Virus record (IMG/VR): IMGVR_UViG_3300043640_000134
Coordinates: 1 to 24,790 of that record
Direction: 5' to 3' (one strand)
Origin: a virus
Length of the DNA stretch: 24,790 nt
Shown: positions 17,120 to 22,968 of the stretch, in pieces
Numbering within the stretch: position 1 is the first letter of the stretch
Layout: each line of letters starts with the position of its first letter
Translations under genes and position numbers: made by a program
The notes under the pieces: generated by a model
The model's database searches: none
What the model saw: the letters and a program-made list of their open reading frames with translations, nothing else
What the model was told of the DNA's origin: nothing

Positions 17120-19273
17120 CTAATTCGCTCGTCGCGCGAGCGCGTCAGCGATGAGGGCCGGGCTGATCCACCAGCGGTTGTCGGTCGACGGCACCTTCAC
17201 TCCGTACTCGCGCGCCAGGCGATCCCTGAGGGCCTTGCCGGTCATCCGCCGGTACGGGGCCCAGCCGGGCGCGTGGCGGGCCAGGAGCGCCGGTACGTCC
17301 GCCGCGGGGACGGTCTCCTCGCCGAGCGCAGCCTCCAAGTCCTCCAGCAGGTCCCGCTTCGGAGCGCGCCGCGGCCCGCCCTTGCCGGGCACGGCGCGGC
17401 CGAGGTCCGCGATGGCCTGCAGCGACCGCTCGATGATGGGCGTGAGCTGGTCGTTGCCCTTCTCGATCGAGATGAAGTACGCCTGCACGATGTCCGACCG
17501 CTCACCGGACAGGCCCTTGCAGACCGCGGTGCCCTTATCCACGCCGGGGATCAGCTCGGTGGCCTTGTGGCCGGCCGTGTAGGCGCCCTGCCCGAGCAGC
17601 GCATCGTTGGCCACGTGGTCACCGACGGCGAACGCGATGCCGTTGGAGCAGTTCCTCGTGACGTCGCGGGGCATCGAGTCCTTCGTCGGCGCCTGCGTCG
17701 AGACGATGACGTGGATGCCGCGCTTGCGGCCCAGCTTCACAATGTCGATGAGGAGCTGGGAGATCTCCTTGCCGAACTTCCTGTGCTGGATGGCCAGGTG
17801 CGCCTCTTCCAGCAGGTAGAACAGTGGATGCAGCCCAATACCAGCGTCGGCCAGGCGCCGCGTGGTGGCCGGTTCCTGCTGGTCGATGAGGATCTGCCCG
17901 CGCGACTGGACCTCGGCGTACAGGTCCTGCAGGTCGTGAAGGATCTCCTCGATGCGCTCGTCTTCGGCGCCCATCACGTACCGGGCAGCGCGGCGCTTGA
18001 ACAGTTCGAAGTCGAAGTTCGTGTCCGGGACGTTGATCCAGATCTCGGCGGTCGGATCGAGTGCAGCACCCGCGAGCATCGCCCGCGCGGCACTGGACTT
18101 GCCCTGACCTGGCATCCCTCCCGCGATCGTGTTCCGCTCCATCACGGGCGCGTTGATCGGGTCGCCGCGCAGGGTCTTGCCGAGCGGCACGCCCTTGAAG
18201 ACGTCGACCTTCCCCTCCGTGAGCAGGGGGTACGGCCCGGCGCCTTCAGCCAGCGCGCCCTTGTCGGCAACCCAGGTGGCGAGGATGCCCGCCTCGGTGC
18301 CGGTGGTCGGCCAGACCTCCTTGGCCAGGCGGTGCAAGGTGGTGGCGAAGTCGGCGCGGCGCCGTGAAATCCGCTCAGCGGTCACGCCGCCCGGCAGACG
18401 CACGGCGAAGAACGTGCCGCGCCCGTCCCGCCGGGGAATCGTGATGAACTGCAGCGGATTGCCTGCCTTGAAGTAGGCCGTGACCTGCGGGATTCGCAGC
18501 GCCTCCAGCGCGCGGGCGATGGTGGTCTCGTCGATATCGACGTCCTCGCCCTCGGCCGCGACCTGCAGCCAGGCGGGCCCGGCACCGGAGTTGCGGCCGA
18601 CGTGCCACAGCATGCCGAGGCCGAGCCACGGCGCGAGGATGACGAGTGGCCCCCACACGATCGCCAGGACTGTGACCAGGCCGCGGACACCGTTGGACAC
18701 GGTGACGAACGTCTGCCGGATCTCGTGCGGGTCATGGTCGGCGATGGCGAGAGTGATGCCGATGAGCAGCAGGAACACGATGATCGCGGCGAGGGTGATC
18801 GCGGCCGCCCTGATGAAGTTGACGATCGTTTCCGGTGCGGACGTCCGGCGCCGGTGGCGGCGCTCGCGGGCCTGCTCGCCGCGGGCTTCCCACTCCTCCA
18901 GCTTCTCCCAGTTCCCTGCGGCCATCGCCGCGCGCATCATCTGCTCGTGGATGCTGTTGGTCTTCGCTCGCCACAGCCGCTTCAGCAGAACGCCGGCGCC
19001 GATGGGCACGTAGGCGGCTTCCCGGACAACCGCGCGGGTGCTGCCATGGGCGGCTACCTCGCGGGTCCGTACGACGATGATGTTCAGGACGCGGGGGATG
19101 GCCGGCGGCGGGAGTGGCTCCTCCCACTCGACGACCGCCTCGTCCCCGCGCATGGCCACCTCGTCCGGTCCCGGTACGGCGAGGTCCCGCCCCGGCTCAT
19201 CCTCCGGGACGGGCTCGCCGTCCGGCTGGCCACCTGGACGGAGCTGCCGGACGTTGTCGGGCGGTGCCGTCAC
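17120..19273 (-). CDS. FtsK/SpoIIIE (TraB)-type DNA translocase
   Basis: I chose GTG 19273, which overlaps the upstream stop by 4 bases (GTGA); the open frame beyond it is a shadow. The product has 717 residues. Two membrane helices lie at about 155-178 and 195-221. The P-loop GGMPGQGKSS is at about 385-394 (Lys392), and the Walker B motif FYLLEEAH at about 484-491. The segment STQAPTKDSMPRDVT follows. The C-terminal 40 residues look like a winged helix (GKALRDRLAREYG, RWWISPALIADALA). Hexameric proteins of this type pump double-stranded DNA between Streptomyces hyphae during conjugation of AICEs and plasmids. The preceding gene is its usual DUF2637/SpdB-like partner. Confidence 0.9.
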   Translation of the reverse strand: MTAPPDNVRQLRPGGQPDGEPVPEDEPGRDLAVPGPDEVAMRGDEAVVEWEEPLPPPAIPRVLNIIVVRTREVAAHGSTRAVVREAAYVPIGAGVLLKRLWRAKTNSIHEQMMRAAMAAGNWEKLEEWEARGEQARERRHRRRTSAPETIVNFIRAAAITLAAIIVFLLLIGITLAIADHDPHEIRQTFVTVSNGVRGLVTVLAIVWGPLVILAPWLGLGMLWHVGRNSGAGPAWLQVAAEGEDVDIDETTIARALEALRIPQVTAYFKAGNPLQFITIPRRDGRGTFFAVRLPGGVTAERISRRRADFATTLHRLAKEVWPTTGTEAGILATWVADKGALAEGAGPYPLLTEGKVDVFKGVPLGKTLRGDPINAPVMERNTIAGGMPGQGKSSAARAMLAGAALDPTAEIWINVPDTNFDFELFKRRAARYVMGAEDERIEEILHDLQDLYAEVQSRGQILIDQQEPATTRRLADAGIGLHPLFYLLEEAHLAIQHRKFGKEISQLLIDIVKLGRKRGIHVIVSTQAPTKDSMPRDVTRNCSNGIAFAVGDHVANDALLGQGAYTAGHKATELIPGVDKGTAVCKGLSGERSDIVQAYFISIEKGNDQLTPIIERSLQAIADLGRAVPGKGGPRRAPKRDLLEDLEAALGEETVPAADVPALLARHAPGWAPYRRMTGKALRDRLAREYGVKVPSTDNRWWISPALIADALARRAN

Positions 19274-19980
19274 GCTGGCCCCGATCCGTTCAGCACGGGC
19301 TCGCGAGCCGGCTCCGATTCGGTCGGCTCTTCGATCTTCTTGAGCCGCTCGGACAGCGTGGCTCGGTTGACGCCCCAGGTTGCCGCGTGCTGGCGCAGGG
19401 TCGGCCGTTCGTCCATGCAGTCCCGGGCGTGGAGGAAGGCGACGACGGGGGCGTCGTCGGCCGTCTTGGCGGGCAGGTGCGGGCACTGGTTCAAGTTGGC
19501 TTCGGGCTGGTCCGGCTCGTCGTCGCCGAGGGCTCGCTGACGGGCTCTGCGGATCATCTCCATGAGCGCCTCGTAGGACAGGATCAAAGCCACGGGCACA
19601 CCGCCGTTGAGCAGGCAAGGCCACAGTCCTGACCCCCATGCGGCGGCCACGTTCATGACCACCGTTCCCAGCGCGCCGAACACGAGGCTGATCCAGGCGA
19701 ACACCGGCTTACCGCCACCGTTCCGGGCGGCGTCCAGGATCGACAGCGACGACGTGGCGATCATCAGGTCGGCCACGAGCGGAACCAGGTAGGCCACGAT
19801 GCCGACCGCTCCGGCCATCCGGGCGACTTCCAGGCCGTGCTGGTAGCTGATGACCCCGGTGATGAGGGCGAGCCCGAGCAGGCCGAGGCCACCCAGCACG
19901 CGGCTGATGCCATCGATCGACCAGCCGTCGGCCACTGGCTCGGCTACGGCCGTCTCGGCGGGTACTGCGGGGGCCTTCAC
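19270..19980 (-). CDS. DUF2637 membrane protein, SpdB-like
   Basis: This 236-residue protein starts at GTG 19980, with AAGGAG 8 bases upstream. Four membrane helices lie at about 25-50, 56-82, 91-118 and 121-142 (for example LGLLGLALITGVISYQHGL and VGIVAYLVPLVADLMIA), the typical DUF2637 arrangement. After an acidic linker, residues about 193-220 (TLRQHAATWGVNRATLSERL) form a helix-turn-helix-like segment. In actinomycete conjugative elements such proteins are encoded next to the TraB/FtsK translocase and are linked to plasmid spread. The two genes here overlap by 4 bases. It presumably forms a membrane complex with the translocase and may contact DNA through its tail. Confidence 0.85.
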   Translation of the reverse strand: MKAPAVPAETAVAEPVADGWSIDGISRVLGGLGLLGLALITGVISYQHGLEVARMAGAVGIVAYLVPLVADLMIATSSLSILDAARNGGGKPVFAWISLVFGALGTVVMNVAAAWGSGLWPCLLNGGVPVALILSYEALMEMIRRARQRALGDDEPDQPEANLNQCPHLPAKTADDAPVVAFLHARDCMDERPTLRQHAATWGVNRATLSERLKKIEEPTESEPAREPVLNGSGPA

Positions 19981-20046: not shown

Positions 20047-20334
20047 TCAGGCGGCATCCCGGCGGCCCTTGACGGCCGCCTTGAGCGCTGCCCCGGCGCG
20101 AAACTTCGGCACACGGGTGGCCGGGACGGTGATGGTGGCGCCGGTGGCCGGGTTCCGGGACTGCCGCTCGGGCCGGGTGACGGGCTCCCAGGACCCGAAG
20201 CCAACGAGGGTGACCTTCTCCCCACTGGCGACGGCAGTCGTGATGGCGTCCACGAAGGCGTCGATGGCCACCGCGGCGGTCTTCTTGTCGCCGAGCTTCT
20301 CTGCGACCTGGTCGATCAGTTCGCTCTTCCTCAT
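20047..20334 (-). CDS. HU-family DNA-binding protein
   Basis: ATG 20334 overlaps the stop of the upstream micro-gene (ATGA). The 95-residue product begins MRKSELIDQVAEKLGDKKTA and contains VTLVGFGSWEPVTRPERQSR, with the RNPATG turn of the DNA-binding beta arm and PATRVPKFRAGAALKAAV at the end. This is the whole HU fold at normal length, without the long Lys/Ala tail of host actinobacterial HupB/HupS-type proteins. It should bend and compact DNA. Lying within the transfer operon, 66 bases before the DUF2637 gene, it may condense element DNA or support recombination or replication. Confidence 0.92.
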   Translation of the reverse strand: MRKSELIDQVAEKLGDKKTAAVAIDAFVDAITTAVASGEKVTLVGFGSWEPVTRPERQSRNPATGATITVPATRVPKFRAGAALKAAVKGRRDAA

Positions 20335-20432
20335 GCGGCGGTCCGTTCTGTGATGGTGGCGACCTCGACACAGTTGCCGTTCGCCATGGAGTCGCTGGCC
20401 TTGCGCCAGTCGATCGGGTCGTTCTCGTTCAC
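20331..20432 (-). CDS. Micro-DUF397 protein (33 residues)
   Basis: GTG 20432 has AAGGAGAG just upstream. The stop overlaps the HU start by 4 bases. The product contains DWRKASDSMANGNCVEVATI, the N-terminal half of the DUF397 signature (WRKSS.S...G.CVEVA), then ends after a few residues. DUF397 proteins usually continue for another 25-30 residues (vRDSK...), which are absent here. DUF397 proteins generally partner XRE/DUF5753 regulators in actinomycetes. This one lies inside the transfer operon. Function is unknown. Confidence 0.75.
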   Translation of the reverse strand: MNENDPIDWRKASDSMANGNCVEVATITERTAA

Positions 20433-20449
20433 GTGCTCTCCTTCTATGG

Positions 20450-20495
20450 GCCGCGGCCCCGGTCTCCCCCCGCAGGGAGGATCCGGGGCCGCGGC
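20450..20495 (-). terminator. Very strong hairpin between two micro-DUF397 genes
   Basis: GCCGCGGCCCCGG (20450-20462) pairs perfectly with CCGGGGCCGCGGC (20483-20495), and the stem extends through TCCC/GGGA. No T-run follows on either strand. It may limit read-through into, or shield the mRNA of, the HU and transfer genes. Confidence 0.6.
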
Positions 20496-20512
20496 GTCTA
20501 TGAGCGGGTCGG

Positions 20513-20599
20513 TCAGGACCCGCCGGTGCCGTCGTCGGTCGTGGCGACCTCGACGCAGTTGCCGCCGTTGCCGCTGTAGCTCGACTTGTAGAACTCCAT
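20513..20599 (-). CDS. Micro-DUF397 protein (28 residues)
   Basis: ATG 20599 follows an excellent ribosome site (AAAGGAGG, 6 bases of spacing). The 28-residue product reads MEFYKSSYSGNGGNCVEVAT and ends in an acidic Gly-rich tail. The YKSSYS.NGGNCVEVA core is diagnostic of DUF397, again truncated right after it. It is a sister of the 20331-20432 gene, from which it is separated by a strong hairpin. The strong ribosome site argues that it is translated. Confidence 0.75.
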   Translation of the reverse strand: MEFYKSSYSGNGGNCVEVATTDDGTGGS

Positions 20600-20633
20600 G
20601 TGCTTCCTCCTTTCACCACTGGCCGGATGGTGT

Positions 20634-20679
20634 CCGGTGGCTCCGGGGTCAGGTTCCATCCAGCACCCGAAGCCACCGG
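20634..20679 (-). repeat. Inverted repeat before the 28-residue gene
   Basis: CCGGTGGCT (20634-20642) and AGCCACCGG (20671-20679) are perfect inverted repeats with a 28-base GC-rich loop. They lie between the 43-residue gene and the ribosome site of the 28-residue gene. It is possibly an attenuator or a partial terminator. Confidence 0.4.
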
Positions 20680-20690
20680 GTCTGTATGGG

Positions 20691-20822
20691 CTACTTGTCG
20701 TAGCCCATGGCCTTGATGAGGCTGGAGATCTCGTCCACGCGCTCCTGGTCGTCGCGCTTGCTCGCAGCGGCCAGCAGGGCTGCGAGCCGGATGGCCTGCT
20801 CGTCCTCGGTTTCCTTCTTCAC
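20691..20822 (-). CDS. 43-residue helical peptide
   Basis: GTG 20822 is preceded by GAGGAG at 7 bases. The product is highly charged and helical (KKETEDEQAIRLAALLAAAS, then QERVDEISSLIKAMGYDK), with a regular Leu/Ile/Ala spacing that could pack as a short coiled coil. No membrane segment or cysteine is present. It lies upstream of the micro-DUF397 genes in the leftward operon. I do not recognise a family. A small regulatory or partner peptide is possible. Confidence 0.6.
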   Translation of the reverse strand: MKKETEDEQAIRLAALLAAASKRDDQERVDEISSLIKAMGYDK

Positions 20823-20981
20823 GGTGGTCTCCTCAATGGTTGGCGGGGACATTCAGGGGCCGCCGGGGAGCGCAGCGAGCGGACGGCATCGCGCGCATCA
20901 CCCGGCGGCAAGGGACGCCCGCTCCCGCGCGGACCGAGCGTCCCGGCTCCGGCCAGGGGGTGACACGGAGCCGTCAGGGGG

Positions 20982-21233
20982 TCAGGGCCAGAGGGGAGGT
21001 TCAGGAGCCGAGCTGGCCCCGGACTCGGCCGCAACGAGCTGGGCCTCCAGGGCGATGTGCAGCGCCTGGGGCATGGTGGACATCAGGAACGGAGTGATCC
21101 CGGCTGAGTCGTCCATGCGGCTCGCGCAATAGCTGCCGCTGGGGACTGCGTCGTACATGCGGTAGGCGCGCCAGATCTTCCAGGCGGGCGACCAGCGTTC
21201 TTGGAGGGCGGTCAGCTCGGGATCGGTACTCAC
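20982..21233 (-). CDS. Conserved hypothetical, first gene of leftward operon
   Basis: This 83-residue protein starts at GTG 21233, with GGGAG about 10 bases upstream. The N-terminal helix TALQERWSPAWKIWRAYRMY, then GITPFLMSTMPQALHIALEA, gives the pattern 'el..L...w..W.IwRa......G......t....L...L.aq'. I recall this from small actinobacterial proteins near XRE regulators and element genes (from memory). There is no catalytic motif. It is the gene nearest the leftward promoter at 21295-21323, so it should be the first translated. About 160 bases without a recognisable gene separate it from the 43-residue peptide gene. Confidence 0.65.
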   Translation of the reverse strand: MSTDPELTALQERWSPAWKIWRAYRMYDAVPSGSYCASRMDDSAGITPFLMSTMPQALHIALEAQLVAAESGASSAPEPPLWP

Positions 21234-21294
21234 TTGCGATCACTCCCGCGGTGCCCGGTCGGTAAGGCCGAGCGAAGTGGCTAGGTACGGGGCC

Positions 21295-21323
21295 ATAATG
21301 CTCTCGTGAAACCTAACTCGCAA
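21295..21323 (-). promoter_or_regulatory. Leftward promoter for the transfer-type operon
   Basis: On the minus strand TTGCGA (21318-21323) and CATTAT (21295-21300) are separated by exactly 17 bases, a good SigA-type match in otherwise GC-rich DNA. Transcription would start near 21288, about 55 bases before the GTG at 21233. Confidence 0.65.
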
Positions 21324-21324
21324 T

Positions 21325-21337
21325 ACTCAAATTGAGT
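21325..21337. promoter_or_regulatory. Palindrome ACTCAA-A-TTGAGT, candidate operator
   Basis: This perfect 13-bp odd palindrome lies one base upstream of the leftward -35 element and about 100 bases before the XRE gene. Position between divergent units suits a regulator site, most simply for the XRE protein. Confidence 0.5.
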
Positions 21338-21405
21338 GTCGTCCGTTAAGTAACCCAATGTCTGCTTTCAAAATGACCGCCGATACGGGGTGCCCTACCA
21401 TCACT

Positions 21406-21416
21406 TCACTGAGTGA
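21406..21416. promoter_or_regulatory. Palindrome TCACT-G-AGTGA, candidate operator
   Basis: This perfect 11-bp odd palindrome has an extra direct TCACT copy at 21401-21405. It sits about 20 bases before the XRE start, where bound regulator would repress its own gene. It shares the ACT...AGT layout with the palindrome at 21325-21337. Confidence 0.45.
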
Positions 21417-21438
21417 GATCGACGTGGCGGAGATACCT

Positions 21439-22290
21439 ATGCCTGACCGACAGAGCCCGACCCTGCGTCGCCGCCGACTTGCGCAGCAACTGCGAGGGCT
21501 GCGCGATGCCGCGGGTTTGACGAGCGCCGAGGTTGCCCGGCGACTGGAGTGGAACCCCAGCAAGCTGACCCGTATGGAGCGCCCCGGCGAGGCCAAGCGC
21601 TACAACGTCCGCGACGTCCGGGACCTGTGCGACACCTACCAGGTCACCGATGAGCACACGCGCGAGCGCCTCGTGCAGCTGGCGCGGGACGGCGCCAAGA
21701 AGGGCTGGTGGGACTCCTACGACAAGATGCTGTCCGGGGAGACCGTGACGTTCTTCGGCTTGGAGGCCGAGGCCGCGAAGGTGCTCATCTTCGAGCCGCT
21801 CGCGGTGCCCGGCCTGTTGCAGACCGAGGAGTACGCCAGAGCGATCGTGGCCGGCGCCGCGGGCGAACTTGCCGATGAGCAGGCGCAGGCGCGCGTCGAG
21901 GTCCGCATGCGACGGCAGAAGTCGCTGTACGAGAGCCCGGCGATGGATCTGGTTGCGATCATCGATGAGGCTGCACTCCACCGTCAGGTCGGCAGCCCCG
22001 AGATCACACGCGCCCAGATCGAGTACCTGAAGGAGCAAGCCCGGCTTCCGAACGTCGTGCTGCACGTCATCCCGTTCGCGAGCGGTGCGCACGCGGGGAT
22101 GAGCGGGAGCTTCAACATCTTGCAGTTCCCCGAGCCGGGCGACCTCGATGCGGTGTTCGCCGACCTGGTCGCAGGGCAGATGTTCATCGAAGATGACAAA
22201 GAGGTGCGGCTGTACCATGCCGCTTTCCTGCATCTGCTCGGCGCTGCTGCGAGCCCTGCGAATACGCTGGAGATGCTCACTGACCGGTGA
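21439..22290 (+). CDS. XRE-family regulator with DUF5753 domain
   Basis: I chose ATG 21439 (283 residues), which has GGAG about 7 bases upstream and gives the usual family length. The frame also opens at 21358, but without a ribosome site. Residues about 12-70 are the helix-turn-helix (LAQQLRGLRDAAGLTSAEVA, then WNPSKLTRMERPGEAKRYNV). Residues about 110-275 are the DUF5753 sensor-like domain, with EPLAVPGLLQTEEYARAI, RMRRQKSLYE, IIDEAALHRQVG and LQFPEPGDLDAVF. Proteins of this type regulate adjacent DUF397 genes and sometimes development or element maintenance in actinomycetes. A DUF397 partner follows 30 bases later. Confidence 0.93.
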   Translation: MPDRQSPTLRRRRLAQQLRGLRDAAGLTSAEVARRLEWNPSKLTRMERPGEAKRYNVRDVRDLCDTYQVTDEHTRERLVQLARDGAKKGWWDSYDKMLSGETVTFFGLEAEAAKVLIFEPLAVPGLLQTEEYARAIVAGAAGELADEQAQARVEVRMRRQKSLYESPAMDLVAIIDEAALHRQVGSPEITRAQIEYLKEQARLPNVVLHVIPFASGAHAGMSGSFNILQFPEPGDLDAVFADLVAGQMFIEDDKEVRLYHAAFLHLLGAAASPANTLEMLTDR

Positions 22291-22320
22291 GTGCCCCGTC
22301 TACCGAGGAAGCCTGTACCT

Positions 22321-22419
22321 ATGCCGAAGGATCTGCCCGAGGCTGCCTGGAGAAAGAGTTCGCGTAGTGACGCGAACGGCAGCTGCGTCGAGGTCGTTGC
22401 ACTCGACGACGAGGAGTAA
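22321..22419 (+). CDS. Micro-DUF397 protein (32 residues), partner of the XRE gene
   Basis: ATG 22321 has GAGGAAG about 9 bases upstream. The product MPKDLPEAAWRKSSRSDANG continues SCVEVVALDDEE and stops. The WRKSSRS..NGSCVEV core is diagnostic of DUF397. The second half of the usual domain is missing, as in the two micro-DUF397 genes on the other strand. Location behind XRE/DUF5753 is the standard arrangement. It is followed by a strong terminator. Confidence 0.85.
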   Translation: MPKDLPEAAWRKSSRSDANGSCVEVVALDDEE

Positions 22420-22436
22420 ACCGCCCCTGAAATCGA

Positions 22437-22465
22437 GAAACCCCCCGAACGCGCCGGGGGGTTTC
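22437..22465. terminator. Bidirectional Rho-independent terminator
   Basis: GAAACCCCCCG (22437-22447) pairs perfectly with CGGGGGGTTTC (22455-22465) around a 7-base loop, with TTTC ending the right arm and GAAA beginning the left arm. It closes the XRE/DUF397 unit. Confidence 0.9.
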
Positions 22466-22557
22466 TCTGTACCTATACCGCGTCCCACGATACCCCAGTG
22501 AGGCGCGGGGCTGACGATGGGCGAGACGTCCGGCGCGACCCCTGCGAAGCTGTCAAT

Positions 22558-22710: not shown

Positions 22711-22968
22711 GTGTTCGCCGATGATCTTGATCACGAGAGTGGCCGGACGCTCTCCCAGCAGATCGCCGACAGGATCGAGAAGAAGATCCGCAGCGGTGCC
22801 CTGCCCCCCGACCGGGCGGTCCCCTCGGAGTCCCAGATCGCGCAGATCTGGAACGTCTCCCGCGACACCGCCCGGCGTGCCACCAGGATCCTCGTGGAGC
22901 GAGGGATCGTCTACACCGTGGTGGGCAAGGGCTCCTACGTCAGGGCGCCGGAGGAGTGGCCACGCTGA
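22711..22968 (+). CDS. Stand-alone GntR-type winged-helix regulator
   Basis: This 85-residue protein starts at GTG 22711. The whole length is a GntR DNA-binding domain: LSQQIADRIEKKIRSGALPP, then PSESQIAQIWNVSRDTARRA, then the wing ILVERGIVYTVVGKGSYVR. There is no effector-binding domain, unlike full GntR regulators of about 230-250 residues. Short GntR proteins of this kind act as repressors in actinomycete conjugative elements (KorSA-type regulators of AICEs are GntR proteins, though longer). The gene has no clear Shine-Dalgarno and is probably leaderless. Its last 29 bases overlap the convergent exoribonuclease gene. Confidence 0.88.
   Translation: MFADDLDHESGRTLSQQIADRIEKKIRSGALPPDRAVPSESQIAQIWNVSRDTARRATRILVERGIVYTVVGKGSYVRAPEEWPR

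Follow-up and report, generated by a model that had tools for sequence, protein, structure and literature searches.

Three very short open reading frames (ORFs) related to DUF397 were found in the IMG/VR virus record IMGVR_UViG_3300043640_000134, whose 24,790 nucleotides (positions 1 to 24,790) were analysed in full and are referred to here as the window. The record is a fragment of a siphophage genome, with genes for a major capsid protein, a tape measure protein, tail proteins and an endolysin with CHAP and peptidoglycan-binding domains (Pfam). On balance, we favour the reading that the three ORFs encode intact, half-size DUF397 partners in a regulator pair of the WhiJ/BldB type, which would modulate an XRE-family regulator on the lysogeny side of the phage. 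Among the genomes surveyed, the half form is the usual DUF397 of the genus Actinoallomurus, where it occurs behind many different XRE/DUF5753 genes and also in tandem arrays. The three ORFs and the two features that accompany the last of them are as follows.

20331..20432, minus strand: micro-DUF397 no. 1, 33 amino acids (aa) (MNENDPIDWRKASDSMANGNCVEVATITERTAA), GTG start; PF04149 match of 27.8 bits over profile positions 2-25 of 55
20513..20599, minus strand: micro-DUF397 no. 2, 28 aa (MEFYKSSYSGNGGNCVEVATTDDGTGGS), ATG start; PF04149 match of 31.6 bits over positions 3-25 of 55
22321..22419, plus strand: micro-DUF397 no. 3, 32 aa (MPKDLPEAAWRKSSRSDANGSCVEVVALDDEE), ATG start; PF04149 match of 33.0 bits over positions 1-25 of 55
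21439..22290, plus strand: regulator of the WhiJ type, XRE (HTH_31) plus DUF5753; HTH_31 2.7e-14, DUF5753 6.3e-52 (Pfam)
22435..22467, plus strand: strong terminator-like hairpin directly after micro-DUF397 no. 3; -26.7 kcal/mol, z -5.1

All three ORFs pass the gathering score of PF04149 (DUF397; 24 bits, profile length 55 positions); their E-values range from 7e-8 to 3e-6 when the complete Pfam library is searched, and no further DUF397 match turned up in any of the six frames of the window. Three half-DUF397 matches in one 25-kb record are not a product of chance. The matches are confined to profile positions 1-26 and stop at position 25 or 26, which confirms both the three genes reported by the first-pass annotation of this DNA and the common truncation after the CVEV core that it had noticed. 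In the alignments the N-terminal KSS...CxE core (beta1-beta2) is present and the C-terminal half of the domain (the RDS motif in beta3, beta4 and the terminal helix) is missing. We class the ORFs as a half-size variant of DUF397 and not as full members of the family; none of the NCBIfam models matches them. Both leftward ORFs have strong ribosome-binding sites (GAAGGAGA for no. 1 and AAAGGAGG for no. 2), and the guanine-cytosine (GC) content at codon position 3 is 0.85, 0.97 and 0.73 for no. 1, no. 2 and no. 3 respectively. The TGA stop of no. 1 overlaps the start codon of the gene for an HU-like protein (ATGA, 20331-20334), which suggests translational coupling between the two. Micro-DUF397 no. 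3 adjoins the XRE/DUF5753 gene, directly 3' of it, and has an alternative GTG start at 22291 that would give a product of 42 aa. The regulator itself has the N-terminal XRE helix-turn-helix (HTH) and the C-terminal DUF5753 domain of WhiJ-type proteins and is related, at a score below the cut-off, to a named NCBIfam regulator; the ATG at 21439 was taken as its start because its relative in Actinoallomurus soli likewise begins MPDRQSPTLRRRRLAQ.

The pairing of regulator and half-size partner was also found in two related phages, G001 and G002, whose FtsK proteins are 85-87% identical to that of the window. In both of them a 37-aa half-DUF397 (MNVPEKDLSGAPWYKST[R/H]SGDASNCVEVVAVE...), which passes the Pfam cut-off over profile positions 1-23, lies directly behind an XRE/DUF5753 gene. 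A hairpin (z about -5; z -4.6 at L093 and z -5.6 at L094) stands directly 3' of the half gene in all three phages, so that transcription of the unit probably stops there and no part of it seems to be absent; in the window, the hairpin at 22435..22467 probably closes the XRE-micro unit. The XRE proteins of G001 and G002 are about 38% identical to the window XRE, whereas the neighbouring genes are 85-92% identical (92% for the GntR gene in G002), a divergence of the kind seen in immunity modules, and the XRE-micro unit therefore behaves as a module that is exchanged. In G002 the gene for a large serine recombinase lies less than 2 kb beyond this unit. Since a large serine recombinase, or the C-terminal portion of one, is encoded in G001 and G002, the phage group, and with it the window phage, is probably temperate. 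With regard to the leftward micro-genes, the very end of the G001 record consists of the ribosome-binding site, ATG and GAGT of the 28-aa gene, and its other end begins just before HU, without the 33-aa gene. The sequence at these two ends indicates that the 28-aa gene is probably common to the window phage and G001 and that the 33-aa gene probably is not.

Loci in bacterial genomes were first gathered by a search with an XRE alignment, and the genomes were grouped by automatic genus assignment, which places Actinomadura sp. DC4 in the Actinoallomurus group. The DUF397 linked to the XRE gene in the loci from this search was nearly always of full length, the exception being A. soli; Streptomyces genomes gave full-length DUF397 matches, whereas A. 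soli and Actinomadura sp. DC4 gave mostly matches to the N-terminal half. Matches to a half-domain profile were found in all eight genomes of the Actinoallomurus group, with 21-106 per genome, and often in runs of separate neighbouring genes. Among 90 sampled DUF397 ORFs of the genus, whose loci were partly selected for half-like matches, 82 are of the half form, six are long-tailed and two are full; the unbiased figure is the count for the single genome G228, where 38 of 44 DUF397 matches cover the N-terminal half only. Sampled loci of other actinomycetes held 164 full DUF397 and not one intact half. A candidate half form outside the genus (L188) was rejected, the locus being cut off at its end. 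Among the loci sampled, the half form is thus standard in one genus and the full form in the other actinomycetes.

The half genes of the genus have a median length of 32 aa and are tightly linked to regulators: an XRE/DUF5753 gene lies no more than 600 nt upstream on the same strand for 78 of the 82, and in 51 of 70 the half-DUF397 core begins at most 40 nt past the stop codon of the XRE gene. After CVEVA, they mostly continue with V-V and a short charged tail and not with the turn of the full domain. The genus has retained a conserved full-length DUF397 paralogue (..RNSRFPDGPALLYTR..), so loss of the second half from the genome is not complete. Some proteins (L207, L217, L231, L232, L385 and L439) consist of two DUF397 halves in tandem and lack a second half; they lend support to the half as a unit. 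At L454 7564-8220 (G230), five consecutive separate half-DUF397 ORFs were observed behind one XRE gene. Our literature search, from whose scope subscription papers mostly fell outside, found no paper that joins Actinoallomurus with DUF397 and none that describes a half-size DUF397.

In a tree of 109 XRE proteins, half and full partners are interleaved, and at least seven changes are forced by strongly supported branches. The half state therefore appears to follow the genus more than the lineage of the regulator, with repeated shortening or replacement. Distances between XRE proteins correlate with those between their half-DUF397 partners (r 0.35, permutation p 0.0005), also when close XRE pairs are removed (r 0.13, p 0.003). 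The closest relative of the window XRE is encoded on A. soli contig 33 (L450); the two proteins are 65% identical and pair in the tree with a support of 100, and micro-DUF397 no. 3 is identical to the half-DUF397 of this locus at 22 of 32 positions (69%). This A. soli locus appears to be part of the chromosome; it includes a divergent AbaA-like HATPase and lies close to phosphate-transport genes, and none of the other window genes tested has a match in the 39 kb around it. XRE and micro-partner have therefore probably been exchanged as a unit between a host-type chromosome and the phage, in a direction that we infer.

A natural fusion of XRE with a half-DUF397 was sought for modelling, and the only fusion that turned up was L102 2983-4071 of Salinispora cortesiana, a single ORF in which XRE-DUF5753 is fused to a full DUF397. 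In the AlphaFold model of this protein (mean predicted local distance difference test score, pLDDT, 92), DUF397 consists of beta1 (WMK), beta2 (VEVAAL), a turn (DG), beta3 (AVACRD), beta4 and a helix. On this model, the micro-proteins would end at the beta2-beta3 turn and hence at a structural boundary. The DUF5753 domain (L102 residues 96-290) aligns to phospholipase D (PLD)-like folds with Z 9.4-10.8 over about 120-148 residues, the matches being SauUSI, NucT, Nuc, Zucchini, FAM83 and TrmBL2. We read this as a resemblance of fold only; DUF5753 could be a degenerated PLD-like domain that acts as an effector or in dimerisation. Sequence searches of the PDB with XRE/DUF5753 and DUF397 returned no relatives.

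The micro-proteins share with DUF397/BldB-like proteins (PF04149; SCO4542, Scr2 and BldB paralogues) the W-R/Y-K-S-S...C-V-E-V core, the position of the gene directly behind an XRE/DUF5753 gene and the occurrence of tandem copies, but they lack the beta3 VRDSK, beta4 and the terminal helix and have 28-33 aa compared with 63 aa in Scr2. Similarly, the Streptomyces WhiJ-BldB-AbaA loci combine an XRE/DUF5753 regulator with a DUF397-type partner, which in the window is the half-size gene at 22321-22419, and a divergent AbaA-like HATPase is present in G002 and in the closest A. soli locus, whereas the window locus is on a phage and has in place of the HATPase an 83-aa divergent ORF. The HATPase is reported for only five of ten S. 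venezuelae paralogue loci (PMC10294661) and is hence not strictly defining. Scr1/Scr2 (SCO4441/SCO4442) is likewise a pair of an XRE gene and a downstream DUF397 gene, with the difference that Scr2 is of full length and chromosomal. For S. clavuligerus, tandem DUF397 genes per XRE and a co-evolution of XRE and DUF397 are reported (PMC8269248); fusions of WhiJ and BldB (DUF397 + WhiJ) also occur (PMC10294661). The XRE-micro unit resembles phage repressor/antirepressor immunity modules in that an HTH regulator and a tiny partner lie together towards the integrase end, and in its divergence between otherwise close phages; it differs in its WhiJ/DUF5753-type regulator and DUF397-half partner.

From the observed gene anatomy, conservation, linkage and covariation we infer the following mechanism, in which binding, direction of effect and role in lysogeny are all conditional. 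The XRE protein would bind between the two divergent genes, at about 21234-21438, and would control the leftward operon as well as its own unit. The micro-protein that is transcribed with it, folded as a small beta hairpin, would bind the XRE protein, most likely at its DUF5753 domain, and alter its activity. The closer published models are those in which the DUF397 protein acts as an intracellular partner: deletion of SCO4542 gives bald colonies and is suppressed by deletion of whiJ, and SCO4542 was proposed to relieve repression by WhiJ (PMC4255298), and Scr1 needs Scr2 (PMC6262351). The two leftward micro-genes would feed back on the same regulator once the leftward operon is on or, alternatively, their products would act on related host WhiJ proteins. 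The placing of the XRE-micro unit as a lysogeny-side switch rests on the G002 block near the large serine recombinase and on the divergence of the unit between close phages. The proposal of the first-pass annotation that the micro-protein is a ligand of the XRE protein remains plausible given the tight linkage and the XRE/half covariation. We put forward more tentatively the wider possibility that, in Actinoallomurus and in the phages that exchange genes with it, the partner was cut in many regulator lineages, each time at one and the same structural boundary, to a hairpin of about 30 residues that binds DUF5753 and suffices alone for regulation, and that phages use the pair as an immunity-type switch.

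Several observations weigh against the reading of the three ORFs as partners of the window regulator. Neither of the leftward micro-genes (no. 1 and no. 2) has an adjoining XRE gene, and the 32-aa protein alone was modelled as two short strands with moderate confidence (pLDDT 75). The correlation between XRE and half-DUF397 distances may reflect joint inheritance and not contact, and the XRE tree was built by a quick method only. There is no integrase within the window, the temperate lifestyle being read from the relatives, and the phage capsid protein had no match in the eight Actinoallomurus genomes, in a search made without a positive control.

Among the other explanations is decay. Most actinomycetes normally have DUF397 of full length, and the micro-ORFs might be decaying remnants of such genes, cut at similar places by chance. 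A second-half profile was compared with the 240 nt downstream of 84 half loci in three frames, and it detected remnants of the second half at none of them: the best downstream score was 5.3 bits, against 4.7 bits in shuffled DNA, whereas 160 of 161 true second halves score above 10 bits. The search for downstream remnants was the check by which the first-pass annotation would have had its own idea refuted. Eight close pairs gave a pooled proportion of synonymous differences (pS) of 0.25 and of nonsynonymous differences (pN) of 0.073, a ratio of 0.29 that points to purifying selection; with few sites, this value is supportive only. Start sites, ribosome-binding sites, hairpins and reading frame are conserved, and the half form is genus-wide and occurs in arrays. 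Decay, which we regard as the least likely of all the explanations weighed here, is thus largely refuted by these comparisons, and the suggestion of the first-pass annotation that the short core is itself a functional product gains support from them and from the related phages.

An unlikely but more substantial alternative is that the phage micro-proteins act mainly on WhiJ-type regulators of the host, mimicking or competing with host partners and so steering development. The three copies in one phage, two of them away from any XRE gene, are compatible with such a decoy, as are the dozens of XRE/half-DUF397 pairs in Actinoallomurus-type hosts and the published hetero-oligomerisation of BldB with BldB paralogues (PMC10294661). 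The copy that is conserved in all three phages, however, goes with the XRE gene of the phage itself, and the XRE/half covariation suggests specific pairing. The two-gene layout, the mobile element and the expansion in genomes would also suit a type II toxin-antitoxin system, as proposed by Makarova in 2009 with DUF397 as toxin and the XRE protein as antitoxin (PMC2701414), here with a miniaturised toxin. We consider this very unlikely because over-expression of Scr2 was without toxicity even in the absence of Scr1 (PMC6262351), only some 25 conserved residues are left in the half, and the extra phage copies have no adjoining XRE gene. Even less likely is a secreted or imported signalling peptide of the RRNPP type that is read by the XRE protein, in the manner of phage arbitrium. 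RRNPP systems (PlcR-PapR, ComR-ComS) share with the window pair an XRE-type HTH and a very small partner, and ComR and PlcR are among the Foldseek matches, but these matches rest on the HTH domain (template modelling score about 0.15; ranges 11-87), DUF5753 aligns to PLD-like folds and gave no match to the TPR ligand-binding domain of RRNPP receptors, a negative that is not proof of its absence, and inspection found a hydrophobic N-terminal stretch, and hence a visible export signal, in none of the three micro-ORFs. The peptide ligand of the first-pass annotation, if understood in this sense, is therefore unsupported.

In actinomycete development, the mode of action of DUF397/BldB proteins on WhiJ-type regulators is a long-standing question, and purified Scr2 was insoluble (PMC6262351). 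A natural half form that persists in each genome in tens of copies indicates which minimal portion is important. If the reading of the half form as a sufficient partner is true, each Actinoallomurus genome would hold tens of specific regulator/micro-protein pairs. Partners of 30 residues can be synthesised chemically and used directly in binding and structure work. Such tiny genes lie near or below common gene-calling length limits, which suggests that they are under-annotated. In the window, a developmental regulator pair of host type would also be located on the lysogeny side of a phage.

Right of the lysin gene, a leftward block (FtsK/SpoIIIE-like, DUF2637, HU and small ORFs) is divergent from the XRE/DUF5753 gene. 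The first-pass annotation labelled this block a transfer operon, a misnomer for these genes in a siphophage. The remaining features of the region are listed below.

17120..19980, minus strand: FtsK/SpoIIIE-like gene and DUF2637 gene of the leftward operon (Pfam)
20047..20334, minus strand: HU-like DNA-binding protein; Pfam Bac_DNA_binding 1.3e-28
20450..20495, minus strand: very stable GC-rich hairpin between micro-DUF397 no. 2 and no. 1; -52.1 kcal/mol, z -5.5
20982..21233, minus strand: 83-aa gene, family unassigned, divergent from the XRE gene; related to L445:3518-3796, E 1e-11
21325..21337, no strand: ACTCAAATTGAGT palindrome between the divergent genes, a weak operator candidate that is short enough for chance
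22711..22968, plus strand: small GntR-type HTH protein downstream of the XRE-micro unit; PF00392 2.7e-15

An integrase remnant was sought at the right end of the window and not found. A defence-system library gave only weak HTH matches in the window, searches of a phage collection with the 28-aa ORF and with the FtsK protein gave weak matches or none, and a scan of viral contigs with the window XRE protein gave no match. The place of the 83-aa gene is occupied by an AbaA-like HATPase (HATPase_c_2) in L005/L447 and in A. soli L450. In the related phage G002 this HATPase is divergent from XRE/half-DUF397 at L005 2852-3364 (L447 1957-2469), and a complete triad of the abaA-whiJ-bldB type is thus encoded on a phage. 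A GC-rich stretch similar to the hairpin at 20450-20495 precedes HU in G001. Direct repeats were sought in the region upstream of the window XRE gene, where nothing convincing was found. Short palindromes are also present in the XRE upstream regions of L447 and L445 (TGCACAGTGCA) and are possible XRE operators.

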